Shown here: positions 9,300-51,600 of the stretch, in pieces
Numbering within the stretch: the first letter of the stretch is position 1
Layout: each line of letters starts with the position of its first letter
The notes under the pieces: generated by a model
Seen by the model: only the letters and a program-made list of their open reading frames with translations
Told to the model about the DNA's origin: nothing
Database searches by the model: none
Source of the DNA: Oscillospiraceae bacterium
GTDB taxonomy: Bacteria > Bacillota > Clostridia > Oscillospirales > Oscillospiraceae
DNA length: 54,337 bases
NCBI GenBank assembly: GCA_017624715.1
Contig: JAGAMN010000022.1
Coordinates: forward strand, 1-54,337
Direction of reading: 5' to 3'
Translations under genes and position numbers: made by a program

Positions 9300-9977
9300 T
9301 TACAGTTTTACCATCACCGGCAGACGAATGATCATTTCGTTTTCCGTTACGGCACAATCCATGGCCAAAACCGTTACGCCATTGGCTGCGGCTTCCCGAA
9401 GTGCCGCACCGAAGGCAGGGTCGGTGGTATCATTGGAGTGCAGGTATTTTACATCGGACATCTGGATCACAAAGAGCACATACGCACCATAGCCCTCCCG
9501 GGCAGCGGCGGTCAGCCCACGCAGATGCTTGACTCCCCGCTCCGTAGGAGCATCGGGGAAGGCGCAGATGCCGTCATCTTCCAGCGTTACACCCTTGACT
9601 TCCAGGAAGCATCGGTGGCCGTCCTTAGTGAAGGAAAAGTCAAACCGGGAGTCACCATGGACGGTTTCTGCCTTCAGGTCTTCAATAGGCCCAAGACCGC
9701 CGCTGCGAAGCCACTCCCCGGCAGCAATATTGGGGGCTTGGGAATCCATATTGATCAACCGCTCCCCTTTATGCACGGCAATCAGGTCGTACTGGGTTTT
9801 GCGGTTGGAGTTGCTGCTTTTCTGACACCACACAAGGGCACCGGGCGTGAGTAATTCCCGGCAGCGGCCGGTGTTTTTCACATGACAGACTGCTTCTGCT
9901 CCGTCGATTTCAACATGGGCAATGAAGCGGTTTGGCCGGAAGCGAAAGATCCCGGGAACCATATTTTCGTAACGCAT
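9300..9977 (-). CDS. sfsA: SfsA family DNA/RNA nuclease-like protein
   Basis: SfsA was first described as stimulating maltose genes in Escherichia coli; it has an OB-like N-terminal half and a restriction-endonuclease-like C-terminal half. The 225 residues fit. Family signatures: FIAHVEIDGAEAVCHVKNTGRC near the N-terminus, SRFDFSF, CFLEVKGVTLEDDGICAFPD with the acidic residues of the nuclease fold, and TERGVKHLRGL. An AGAGGTGAG ribosome site precedes ATG 9977. Its physiological role in Firmicutes is uncertain. Confidence 0.92.
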   Translation of the reverse strand: MRYENMVPGIFRFRPNRFIAHVEIDGAEAVCHVKNTGRCRELLTPGALVWCQKSSNSNRKTQYDLIAVHKGERLINMDSQAPNIAAGEWLRSGGLGPIEDLKAETVHGDSRFDFSFTKDGHRCFLEVKGVTLEDDGICAFPDAPTERGVKHLRGLTAAAREGYGAYVLFVIQMSDVKYLHSNDTTDPAFGAALREAAANGVTVLAMDCAVTENEMIIRLPVMVKL

Positions 9978-10041
9978 AGGCTCACCTCTTAGATTTATGG
10001 TAGCAGATTTTTTAGATTTCGCAAGAGGGAGAATTTTTTTG

Positions 10042-10069
10042 TTGACAATCGGGATTTTTGTGATATAAT
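10042..10069 (+). promoter_or_regulatory. Promoter of tRNA-Val(CAC)
   Basis: TTGACA (10042-10047), 16 bp, TATAAT (10064-10069). Confidence 0.8.
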
Positions 10070-10086
10070 CTTACCTGTTCCGATAT

Positions 10087-10163
10087 GGAGGCATAGCTCA
10101 GCTGGTTAGAGCGCATGCTTCACACGCATGAGGTCACAGGTTCGAGTCCTGTTGTCTCCACCA
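10087..10163 (+). tRNA. tRNA-Val (anticodon CAC)
   Basis: A 77-nt cloverleaf with encoded CCA: acceptor GGAGGCA / TGTCTCC, D-arm GCTC...GAGC, anticodon stem CATGC / GCATG around loop TTCACAC (anticodon CAC, reads GUG), T-arm ACAGG TTCGAGT CCTGT. It has its own promoter and terminator. Confidence 0.95.
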
Positions 10164-10200
10164 AACAAAAAACCCATCCGAAAGGATGGGTTTTTTGTTT
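10164..10200 (+). terminator. Terminator of tRNA-Val(CAC)
   Basis: Long stem AAACAAAAAACCCATCC / GGATGGGTTTTTTGTTT with a GAAA tetraloop, directly after the CCA end. Confidence 0.9.
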
Positions 10201-10348
10201 GGTGAAAATAAGACACAGGACTAGAACCCATCTAAATGCAATAGTCCAGTGGACTGTTGCGGCCACCAGTTCAAAAACTGGTGGCAACATTAGTTTTTGC
10301 CCCAAAGGGGCAAAAATGCAAATCGAGTCCTTTTGTCTCCGGACACCA
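10201..10348. repeat. Palindromic element built from the tRNA-Val(CAC) 3' end
   Basis: The stretch begins with an inverted, slightly altered copy of the tRNA 3' half (10211-10229, AGACACAGGACTAGAACC) and ends with a direct copy, TCGAGTCCTTTTGTCTCC (10323-10340), which differs at one base from the tRNA. Between them are three hairpins: GCAATAGTCC / GGACTGTTGC (10238-10260), GCCACCAGTT / AACTGGTGGC (10262-10285) and TTTTTGCCCC / GGGGCAAAAA (about 10293-10315). A related element follows tRNA-Val(GAC). No coding sequence. Confidence 0.7.
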
Positions 10349-10489
10349 CATCCGACCTCGCTGTCGCTCGGCCACCTTCTCCTCAAGGAGAAGGCCTGTC
10401 GGGCAATTCGTGAATCGCTCCTACAAAATGATTATCGCCCGGGCGATTGTGTTATTTTGTAAATTATCCAATTCCAGCACATTTTCCCA
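10349..10489. repeat. Dispersed intergenic repeat with hairpins
   Basis: Contains GCCACCTTCTCC...AAGGAGAAGGC, a hairpin, then ATTCGTGAATCGCTCCTAC, which resembles the sequence near 16823 (ATTCACGAATCGCC). No gene is seen before the GH2 promoter. Confidence 0.5.
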
Positions 10490-18524: not shown

Positions 18525-18601
18525 GGACGATTAGCTCAGCTGGCTAGAGCATCCGCTTGACGTGCGGAAGGTCATAGGTTCGAGTCCTATATCGTCCACC
18601 A
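18525..18601 (+). tRNA. tRNA-Val (anticodon GAC)
   Basis: A 77-nt cloverleaf with encoded CCA: acceptor GGACGAT / ATCGTCC, anticodon stem TCCGC / GCGGA around loop TTGACGT (anticodon GAC, reads GUC/GUU), T-arm ATAGG TTCGAGT CCTAT. Confidence 0.95.
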
Positions 18602-18640
18602 AAAAGAAAAGACCACCCAGACGGGTGGTCTTTTCTTTTT
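18601..18640 (+). terminator. Terminator of tRNA-Val(GAC)
   Basis: Stem AAAAAGAAAAGACCACCC / GGGTGGTCTTTTCTTTTT with loop AGAC, starting at the last A of CCA. Confidence 0.9.
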
Positions 18641-18782
18641 GGTATGGTATTCAGATATAGGACTCGAAGAGGGCGGCGACGGCGTAGCCGACGCAACCAA
18701 GTGTCCGGTGGACACTTGGTTAGCCCGGGGAAGAGTCCTATGGAAAGCCGGTTGCAGGTTGCGGCCTGTAAACGGCTTTTCA
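18641..18782. repeat. Palindromic element built from the tRNA-Val(GAC) 3' end
   Basis: GATATAGGACTCGAA (18654-18668) is an exact 15-nt inverted copy of the tRNA T-arm/acceptor region, and GAGTCCTAT (18733-18741) is a short direct copy. Between them is a GC-rich core with CGGCGTAGCCG (18680-18690) and the 11-bp hairpin ACCAAGTGTCC / GGACACTTGGT (18696-18720, loop GGT). A further AGCCG...CGGCT stem follows (about 18746-18778). Same plan as the element after tRNA-Val(CAC). Non-coding. Confidence 0.7.
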
Positions 18783-50215: not shown

Positions 50216-51421
50216 TTAAGCTTCCAGGTTGACCTTGGTCTCCTTGTTGAAGACATGGCAGCAGTTGCCGGGGAAGGCAAACTTAACAGCCTTGCCCATG
50301 CACAGCTCAGAAACCTCAGCACCGGTCATATGCATGGTGGAAACCACGATAACTACATCGCGGCCCAGAGCACTGACGTGCAGGTGGACGGAGGAACCCA
50401 TCATTTCGGAAACGTCGATGACGGAGTCGATGCCCTCGTTCTCTTCCAGAGTAATGTGCTCAGGACGAACGCCCAGGACGATCTCCTGCTCCTCAACGCC
50501 GTTGGCAGTCAGGTTAGCCTGCTTCTCCTCGGACAGCTCAACAACATAGCCGCCCAGCTCGACAGCATACTTGCCGTCCTTCTTGATCAGCTGTGCGTCG
50601 AACAGGTTCATCATAGGAGAGCCAATGAAGGCGGCAACGAACAGGTTGTAGGGGTGGTTGAACACTTCCTGAGGAGTGCCGATTTGCTGAATGAAACCGT
50701 CCTTCATGATGACGATACGGTCGCCCAGAGTCATAGCCTCAGTCTGGTCGTGGGTAACATAAATAAAGGTAGTATTGATACGTTCACGCAGCTTAATGAG
50801 CTCTGCACGCATCTGGTTACGCAGCTTGGCGTCCAGGTTGGACAGAGGCTCGTCCATCAGCATGACCTGAGGATCACGGACGATAGCACGGCCGATGGCA
50901 ACACGCTGACGCTGACCGCCGGACAGAGCCTTGGGCTTACGGCCCAGGTACTGGGTGATGTCCAGGATCTCAGCGGCTTCCTTAACCTTGCGGTCGATCT
51001 CAGCCTTGGGACGATGACGCAGCTTCAGAGCGAAAGCCATGTTATCGTACACGGTCATGTGGGGGTACAGAGCATAGTTCTGGAAGACCATTGCGATGTC
51101 GCGATCCTTGGGGGGCACGTCGTTGACCAGGCGGTCGCCGATGTACAGCTCACCATCGGAGATCTCTTCCAGACCGGCGATCATACGAAGGGTGGTGGAC
51201 TTACCACAGCCGGAGGGGCCGACCAGAACGATAAATTCCTTGTCCTGGATATCCAGGCAGAATTCCTGAACGGCAACAACGCCCTCTGCAGTAACCTGCA
51301 GGTTGACCTTGTTTTCCTCGTCGACAACTTCATCCTTCTTCTTTTTCTTCTTGTTCTTCTTGATGTCGTCGCCGCTGAACGGATAGACTTTCTTGATGTT
51401 TTTCAGGGTTAAACTTGCCAT
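50216..51421 (-). CDS. Multi-sugar ABC importer ATPase (MsmX/UgpC type)
   Basis: CUT1-type ATPase of 401 residues, which in Firmicutes often serves several carbohydrate importers; no permease adjoins. Walker [20 protein letters not shown], signature [16 protein letters not shown], Walker [16 protein letters not shown], switch [12 protein letters not shown], and a C-terminal TOBE regulatory domain ([13 protein letters not shown]). Oddity: the N-terminus holds an extra Lys/Asp-rich insert ([19 protein letters not shown], about 17-35) between the first strands. ATG 51421 matches family start MASLTLKNI, but its ribosome site is weak. Confidence 0.9.
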
Positions 51422-51600
51422 ACTTTCTGACTCTAAGCATACCGCCTCCGCGCGTATGCTCTCACAGTCGTCCATGAAAAGACGACACTGTATTACAGCA
51501 GGTCTCCACACTGCTGCACCGCGAGTCTTGCGGGTGTTTTTTATCCTCCTTTTTTGATGAACGATGCCTATTTTGTGGAGTAGGCATAATCCACCTAGAT
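51422..51600 (-). promoter_or_regulatory. Structured leader of the sugar ABC ATPase gene
   Basis: A leader of about 180 nt with four hairpins on the minus strand: ATGCCTA / TAGGCAT (51569-51592), AGCAG / CTGCT (51497-51515), GTCGTC / GACGAC (51467-51486), and AGCATAC / GTATGCT (51436-51460). The last loop holds GGAGG, a ribosome-site-like sequence. A separate AAAGGAGGAT (51543-51552) has no ATG nearby. Suggests translational or RNA-based control. Confidence 0.45.

Follow-up and report, generated by a model that had tools for sequence, protein, structure and literature searches.

Downstream of a tRNA-Val(CAC) gene in the genome of an Oscillospiraceae gut bacterium lies a short non-coding stretch that carries two copies of the 3' end of this very tRNA, one inverted and one direct, and the question raised by this locus is what kind of element this is and how it came to match its neighbor. 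The gene is located in a window of 54,337 nucleotides (the whole stretch of DNA that was analyzed), which is part of a genome (G000) of 2.27 Mb in 69 contigs with a completeness of 86%. Judged from sequence, the genus is probably Faecousia, since the named sfsA relatives include several Candidatus Faecousia, with an sfsA identity of 68-73%, below that of Oscillospiraceae MAGs at up to 87%. An inverted copy, three hairpins and a direct copy had been proposed behind this tRNA in a first-pass annotation, and this arrangement, referred to here as a unit, was confirmed, with the following features:

10087..10163, plus strand: tRNA-Val(CAC), the target gene (ARAGORN; Rfam RF00005, 71.7 bits).
10164..10204, plus strand: terminator 1, the palindromic trailer, made of an A-tract, stem, loop, stem, T-tract and TGGTG.
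10211..10228, plus strand: inverted copy of the tRNA-Val(CAC) T-arm and acceptor 3' strand, AGACACAGGACTAGAACC.
10229..10322, plus strand: type A core, common to other units of G000 (model R1 match at 10218-10330, 98.8 bits).
10238..10260, plus strand: hairpin 1, GCAATAGTCC AGT GGACTGTTGC, read from the sequence and from co-variation.
10262..10285, plus strand: hairpin 2, GCCACCAGTT CAAA AACTGGTGGC, read from the sequence and the fold; outside the co-variation count.
10294..10316, plus strand: hairpin 3, TTTTTGCCCC AAA GGGGCAAAAA, from sequence and co-variation.
10323..10340, plus strand: direct copy of the tRNA-Val(CAC) 3' end from T55/C56, 17/18 identical to 10142-10159, without ACCA.

The junctions of the unit lie in the T-loop of the tRNA, at nt 54-56. 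The palindrome of terminator 1 has arms of 21 bp and extends 5 nt into the tRNA 3' end, and hairpin 3 is missing from some relatives. Folding compared with shuffles gave z -14.0 for 10087-10348 as RNA, the stretch singled out at first pass for folding, and z -7.4 for 10211-10345 as DNA. None of 5000 base shuffles of the tRNA-Val(CAC) downstream region produced both copies with matches as good as the real ones. It had also been claimed that the copies fit the local tRNA and not the other tRNA-Val, which holds, with scores of 18 (inverted) and 29 (direct) against Val-CAC and of 12 and 16 against Val-GAC. Between the tRNA copies of the window, an integrase gene or cargo is absent and only the 94-bp hairpin core is present. 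No named Rfam family matches the core at gathering score, and the weak matches in 10080-10360 mostly concern the tRNA/terminator palindrome and are below the cut-offs, except for the tRNA itself. Searches of plasmid and phage collections with the element gave no match. Elsewhere in the window, a malK-I RNA (RF03069, 140 bits) is found at 51416-51598 on the minus strand.

The first reading has to be amended in one respect, as the tRNA-Val(GAC) at 18525 has a unit of its own, with a different core and its own arms:

18525..18601, plus strand: tRNA-Val(GAC), target of the second unit (tRNA call).
18602..18643, plus strand: terminator 1 of this unit, palindromic, ending in TTTTTGGT (read from the sequence).
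18654..18668, plus strand: inverted copy of the tRNA-Val(GAC) 3' part, GATATAGGACTCGAA.
18669..18732, plus strand: type B core (grouped by eye).
18733..18741, plus strand: short direct copy of the tRNA-Val(GAC) T-arm, GAGTCCTAT.

By eye, this kind of core is also present behind tRNA-Asn and tRNA-Ser(GGA) of G000 and behind the tRNA-Val(CAC) of a relative (L130).

The two units of the window belong to a dispersed family. A BLAST search of the element against G000 found 19 places, and the best 8 of these 19 are behind 8 different tRNA/tmRNA genes (Val-CAC, tmRNA, Arg-CCG, Ala-CGC, Pro-GGG, His, Asp and Gly-CCC). A survey of 50 tRNA/tmRNA genes of this genome added Arg-TCT, Asn, Leu-CAG, Lys, Ser-CGA, Ser-GCT, Ser-GGA and Val-GAC. 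In total, at least 16 tRNA/tmRNA genes of G000 have a unit, which is of type A (three hairpins) in 13 cases and of the shorter type B in 3 (Asn, Ser-GGA and Val-GAC); Leu-TAA and Trp are doubtful carriers, and downstream of about two thirds of the tRNA genes no unit was recognized. In a strict test on genes with at least 220 nt downstream, with a score of at least 18 for both arms, the two arms match the own tRNA in 12 of 48 genes, compared with 6 of 2252 cross pairs, all six of which sit on downstream regions of the 12 passing genes. The usual plan of the family begins with the tRNA and its terminator; an inverted copy of the T-arm of this tRNA comes next, then a core with two or three hairpins, and last the tRNA 3' end again in direct orientation. 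Tandem units occur at the family level (L019, L051, L081, L087 and L243), not at the window copy. As a side observation, a different hairpin-array repeat (GATATCCGTTCC... GGAACGGATATTATATC...) was seen soon after tRNA terminators, namely in the trailers of tRNA-Cys and tRNA-Gly(GCC) of G000 (L033, L030) and also at L179.

A covariance model (R1) built from 14 type A units matches in 52 of the 61 genus genomes searched, with 0 to 24 matches per genome and none in 9 of them. Among the named sfsA loci, 17 of 80 contain a match (23 matches), with an own-strand tRNA upstream in all 17 but L140, which has an island end. The genomes are mostly draft MAGs, and the sampled sources were partly picked for having a unit. 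In a selection of 98 sources, the model gave 120 copies; for 107 of these copies, spread over 34 genomes and 28 tRNA/tmRNA kinds, a tRNA lies upstream on the same strand, at a median distance of 52 nt and at most 658. Seven of the first 30 model-hit loci were left out: L065, L070, L074, L076, L078 and L084, where no tRNA was found, and L088, whose arms match tRNA-Tyr, which was not found there, the nearest tRNA being tRNA-Thr. When the 70 loci picked by model hit alone (30 + 40) are considered, the own tRNA/tmRNA is upstream in 54 (ARAGORN), and L232 has a truncated tmRNA. The remaining 15 are four loci at contig ends (L065, L074, L076 and L264), four with a displaced tRNA end (L070, L078, L084 and L231), a tRNA-Trp array without its gene (L087), L088, and the orphans L240, L244, L250, L252 and L265. 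Of the further regions L089-L099, L091 was the one read and used.

Integrative elements were also seen near some units. At L070, L231 and L140, a reading frame that resembles a serine recombinase by eye (in translation at L070, from the DNA at the other two) runs up to a displaced tRNA 3' end, with the unit immediately after it, and by eye phage-type integrase-like genes lie downstream on the opposite strand at L046 and L054 (tRNA-Leu(TAA) and the second tRNA-Ser(CGA) of G000). The displaced tRNA ends of integrative elements beside some units are taken as separate events. Two exact matches to one hairpin variant were found in viral contigs; both look by eye like host flanks of prophages with a displaced tRNA end (tRNA-Thr, L276; tRNA-Lys, L277). 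Downstream of the unit at L277, at about 9950-10150, short pieces of the tRNA-Lys 3' end (CCAGCGGGTCACCATCGCGTAAGCGAAGAC) are also repeated about five times, head to tail.

Among 85 local alignments of the direct copy to its tRNA, 78 begin at T55 or C56, and 33 extend to A76. For the inverted copy, nt 54-62 are matched in 94-100% of the units per position and nt 66-72 in about a third; its local alignment gets to A76 in 16 of 85 units, and most stop before the CCA. Empty sites were found as well. The tRNA-Gly(GCC) of G000 is empty (L033) and followed by ATCAAATAGAATAGGAACGC, and in G026, where this tRNA has a unit (L081), the same right flank (ATCAAATAGAATAGGAACGC) comes after the direct copy. 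Among paralogues in G000, tRNA-Arg(ACG) is empty (L031), and its trailer resembles the flank beyond the unit of tRNA-Arg(CCG), which is filled (L003). In the tRNA-Val(CAC) surroundings of 30 genomes, read by eye, a unit is found behind Val in 9 and behind the following Gln in 11, one of which (G037, L117) has inverted and direct pieces without a core; none was recognized in 9, three of them less than 170 nt from a contig end, and the contig ends in 1. The trailers were compared in the 38 of 85 units whose direct copy extends to the CCA, and in 14 of these the left and right trailers are more alike than 95% of mismatched pairs; this set includes tandem units, and the clearest single units with a duplicated terminator are L109 (G058), L224 (G001), L237 (G011) and L248 (G054). 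The empty and filled sites put the insertion point in the T-loop and indicate that the 3' end of the tRNA, in some cases along with the terminator, is duplicated. Such an insertion would be tolerated because the tRNA keeps an intact 3' end.

At first pass, a random occurrence of tRNA-like copies, unlinked to the identity of the adjacent tRNA, had been considered; within the genus, the link is strong. When each arm was scored against 85 distinct 3' ends, the own tRNA came within the top 5% for 94 of the 107 direct arms and for 83 of the 107 inverted arms, and 7 of the 107 direct arms score below the median of the other tRNAs. At L130, a Val-CAC unit, the right arm is by eye more like Val-GAC. 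The cores follow a different pattern from the arms, as those behind His, Asp and Gly-CCC of G000 are 90-94% identical and have different arms. In 25 of 107 cases, the nearest neighbor of a core belongs to the same genome (label shuffles: mean 6.4, maximum 16, n=500), and in 16 of 107 it sits behind the same tRNA (shuffles: mean 5.2, maximum 18), indicating that cores are common to different tRNAs within a genome and are probably also inherited in place.

The fixed junctions in the T-loop and the duplicated 3' end are also what tRNA integrases produce, and integrative elements use these tRNAs in the genus (L070, L231 and L140; L276 and L277). The units could accordingly be small cassettes or remnants of integrative elements placed by site-specific recombination, with the T-arm serving as attB and the two copies of the tRNA representing duplicated att sequence. 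This explanation is considered distinctly improbable: the cores are non-coding and about 90 bp long, the related cores at many tRNAs with arms matching each go beyond one attP, and the inverted copy is left unexplained. A serine recombinase domain is present in 56 of the 61 genomes, most element-free ones included, and does not vary with the number of elements; the element-rich G050, G055 and G026 (drafts, 53-83% completeness) gave no match to it. The related first-pass idea of decayed integration scars fits poorly with the regular anatomy and with the strong co-variation of the hairpins.

Local arms could also be explained without any jumping, if the units are old residents, one per tRNA, with cores homogenized by gene conversion and absences due to precise deletions, which the direct repeats would permit. 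The raised number of same-tRNA neighbors across genomes agrees with this, and part of the pattern is probably inheritance in place. On the other hand, among 295 genomes drawn from the order only four match, two of the genus and two outside, in a search that scored few candidates per genome and possibly missed weak copies. The two outside the genus are a decayed match behind tRNA-Arg (L210) and one adjacent to a tRNA-Met that its arms do not resemble (L211, in G212). With only these two matches lying outside, it is probable that the genus, or a lineage close to it, is where units were acquired at many kinds of tRNA. In addition, the same tRNA-Val(CAC) hosts a type A core in the window and a type B core in the relative at L130. 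Homogenization of old resident units is therefore regarded as quite unlikely.

The hairpins and the arms have evolved differently. In an alignment fitted to the model, pairing in hairpins 1 and 3 amounts to 98.1%, and double changes occupy 347 cells, compared with 62 in shuffles, none of 500 shuffles reaching 347; in an unfitted alignment of 14 units, a double change is present in 12 of 15 pairs. This co-variation shows that the folded structure is important, be it at the RNA or the DNA level. Among the hairpin mismatches, G-U and A-C account for 15 and 4 of 1511 cells in the model-fitted alignment, where the fitting favors perfect stems, and for 17 and 10 of 2079 in the unfitted one, where hairpin finding favors perfect stems; in tRNA acceptor stems, G-U makes up 24 of 399. 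In the arms, 668 of the 765 cells (nt 56-64 of 85 first units) match the tRNA on both sides. The 97 deviating cells comprise 52 changed in the inverted copy only, 41 in the direct copy only, 4 in both differently and 0 in both alike; about 1 joint alike change is expected under independence, so that zero is weak evidence alone. As there is no sign of compensated change between them, the two arms seem to be copies of the tRNA that decay separately and postdate the hairpins. A closing stem kept by selection was a candidate to which the arm data lend no support, although few joint changes would be expected in any case.

Selection on the structure as a whole offers a further explanation, according to which the unit acts as RNA, for example as a decoy for processing enzymes, a regulator of the 3' trailer or an RtT-like small RNA, with the arms kept as its closing stem. 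The hairpin co-variation is very strong, and one unit, located between Arg-TCT and His in a tRNA cluster, is by its position probably transcribed. Against this stand the arms, without an excess of joint changes, the terminator-like hairpin that precedes most units (70 of 85), the many tRNA genes of G000 without a recognized unit and the 9 genus genomes without a model match, and this account of the unit is deemed unlikely.

The reading preferred here, at a probability of roughly 0.6, is that the unit would be a short non-coding insertion in the tRNA T-loop, of which the core spreads and the arms are copied anew from each target. The mobile palindrome duplicating its tRNA target that had been suggested at first pass thus gains a dispersed family, filled and empty sites, shared cores and local arms; its target duplication stands, and its mobility is the part that we infer from comparing sequences.

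The trailers give an indication of how the arms could be made. By the rule used, which kept loci with a hairpin found, a trailer hairpin is present at 70 of 85 element loci and at 18 of 30 element-free genes of G000. The palindrome reaches at least the last tRNA base at 60 of 85 element loci, compared with 2 of 30 element-free genes, and takes in the CCA at 18 of 85, compared with 1 of 30. At L253, L256, L259, L083 and L061, the palindrome has arms of 37-40 bp (isolated mismatches allowed), which run from the T-loop through the CCA and the terminator. Such a long palindrome at the tRNA end is expected from a strand that is copied back on itself from the trailer, which would explain the unit's own terminator; a full fold-back is seen in a minority, as 18 of 85 palindromes enter the CCA and 16 of 85 inverted copies reach A76. 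Behind tRNA-Ser(TGA) of G000 (L036), part of an inverted T-arm copy accompanies a palindrome that runs into the end of the tRNA, and no core is present; this may be a unit in decay or the product of fold-back alone.

Under the preferred reading, the unit could arise in three steps. First, a strand with the tRNA 3' end would fold back at the palindromic trailer and be copied back via the CCA and the acceptor strand to the T-loop, giving the new terminator and the inverted copy that are present in the anatomy. Second, synthesis or recombination would switch at the common T-loop sequence (TTCRANTCC) to the arm of a resident unit and copy its core, a switch suggested by the shared cores. Third, a return at the far end of the core to nt 55/56 of the target T-loop would leave the original 3' end and terminator as the direct copy, as the filled and empty sites suggest. 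The resulting direct repeats would permit tandem growth, in line with the arrays, and precise loss by recombination.

A variant in which RNA is the template is retro-copying, where the terminator hairpin of the pre-tRNA primes a reverse transcriptase, yielding the inverted copy, followed by a template switch to a core RNA. A palindrome is the expected product of self-priming, and the duplicated stretch can end near the T-run of the terminator, i.e., near the transcript 3' end (L109, L224 and L237). Reverse transcriptase shows no correlation with element number, though. No RVT_1 match (E 1e-5) was found in the element-rich and fairly complete genomes G011 (15 hits, 97% complete), G054 (18, 97%), G059 (14, 95%) and G018 (21, 92%), and the element-free G006, G007 and G039 have one or more, which counts against an RNA route as far as draft genomes allow. 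The Arg-TCT unit, moreover, has no obvious terminator before it. Retro-copying is therefore the least probable of the explanations and should be seen as highly improbable.

Among the literature matches listed, no description of such units was recognized. The first-pass statement that no named element has this plan does not hold, as the RtT repeats of Escherichia coli (Rfam RF00391) have the same one. RtT comprises the 178-bp repeats of tyrT/tyrV (rttR), and the 178-bp repeats behind tyrV in E. coli K-12 repeat the last 19 tRNA bases. When re-read here, each tyrV repeat was found to have an inverted T-arm copy ahead of the core as well. Ten E. coli stretches, nine from K-12, were read (including tyrTV, L275; proK, L280; argVYZQ, L283), which do not comprise all tRNA loci. 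Rfam RtT matches of 101-137 bits are present four times at tyrT/tyrV and once at proK, where the final 19 bases of the unit correspond to tRNA-Pro and not to tRNA-Tyr, and where the terminator is repeated. At argV, argZ and argQ, a related core (AACGTTGC..GCAACGGCCCGAAGGGCGA), below the Rfam cut-off, is followed by an 18-19-base copy of the tRNA-Arg 3' end; the argV/argZ core matches the proK core at 42 of 51 positions in a local alignment. Direct copies that are the next tRNA gene (argY, metZ/W, glnV/U, glnW and leuP/Q) were not counted as units. As for inverted copies, argV and argQ have a weak one, none was found at argZ, and the one at proK fits tRNA-Arg as well as tRNA-Pro, so that the matching to the own tRNA rests on the direct copies in E. 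coli. A terminator palindrome was not seen at the Tyr and Arg units. The RtT core has a BLAST match in 4695 of 5426 E. coli genomes, at 1 to 14 places each.

RtT thus resembles the Faecousia units in its position behind a tRNA gene, in having the 3' end of this tRNA repeated in direct orientation after a hairpin core, in the inverted T-arm copy before the core (tyrT, tyrV and proK) and in tandem arrays. The two cores have no detectable relation, as RF00391 (cut-off 45 bits) has no match in 10080-10360 up to E 10, where 33 matches of other kinds appear. The direct copy starts at nt 58/59 in RtT and at nt 55/56 in the Faecousia units, and only three tRNA kinds carry RtT in the ten stretches read. 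RtT repeats may have taken the same route with another core, as the common anatomy suggests.

Other known systems share a part of the plan. MITEs and other non-autonomous palindromic repeats are short, non-coding and dispersed, with hairpins, terminal inverted repeats and flanking duplications, as are the units; in the units, however, the inverted repeats are target sequence and differ at each site, and the duplication is about 20-60 bp with one end fixed in a gene. At the att sites of tRNA-integrating elements, insertion also takes place in the 3' part of the tRNA and the 3' end is duplicated, whereas the units have no integrase or cargo, possess an extra inverted copy and have related cores at many tRNA kinds. 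We know of no target-derived arms in Dada-type transposons, which we take to be the DNA transposons that target small RNA genes. One paper describes DNA transposons that target multicopy small RNA genes specifically (PMC3706591); Dada-type transposons are eukaryotic and have a transposase, unlike the bacterial units.

As a tentative and still doubtful proposal, the units may represent a class of mobile bacterial sequence that would have arisen separately in Oscillospiraceae and Enterobacteriaceae, with only the core inherited and both flanks made afresh through fold-back copying of either DNA or the pre-tRNA transcript; RtT would be its first member seen, though unrecognized as mobile. Known transposons bring their own ends along. 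If the proposal is true, it would describe an unusual mode of spreading, in which the ends are copied from the target and a structured core passes between tRNA genes, and the RtT repeats, an old oddity of E. coli, would be explained as one case of a wider kind. Duplications of tRNA 3' ends, finally, would then not always be the scars of phages or islands.
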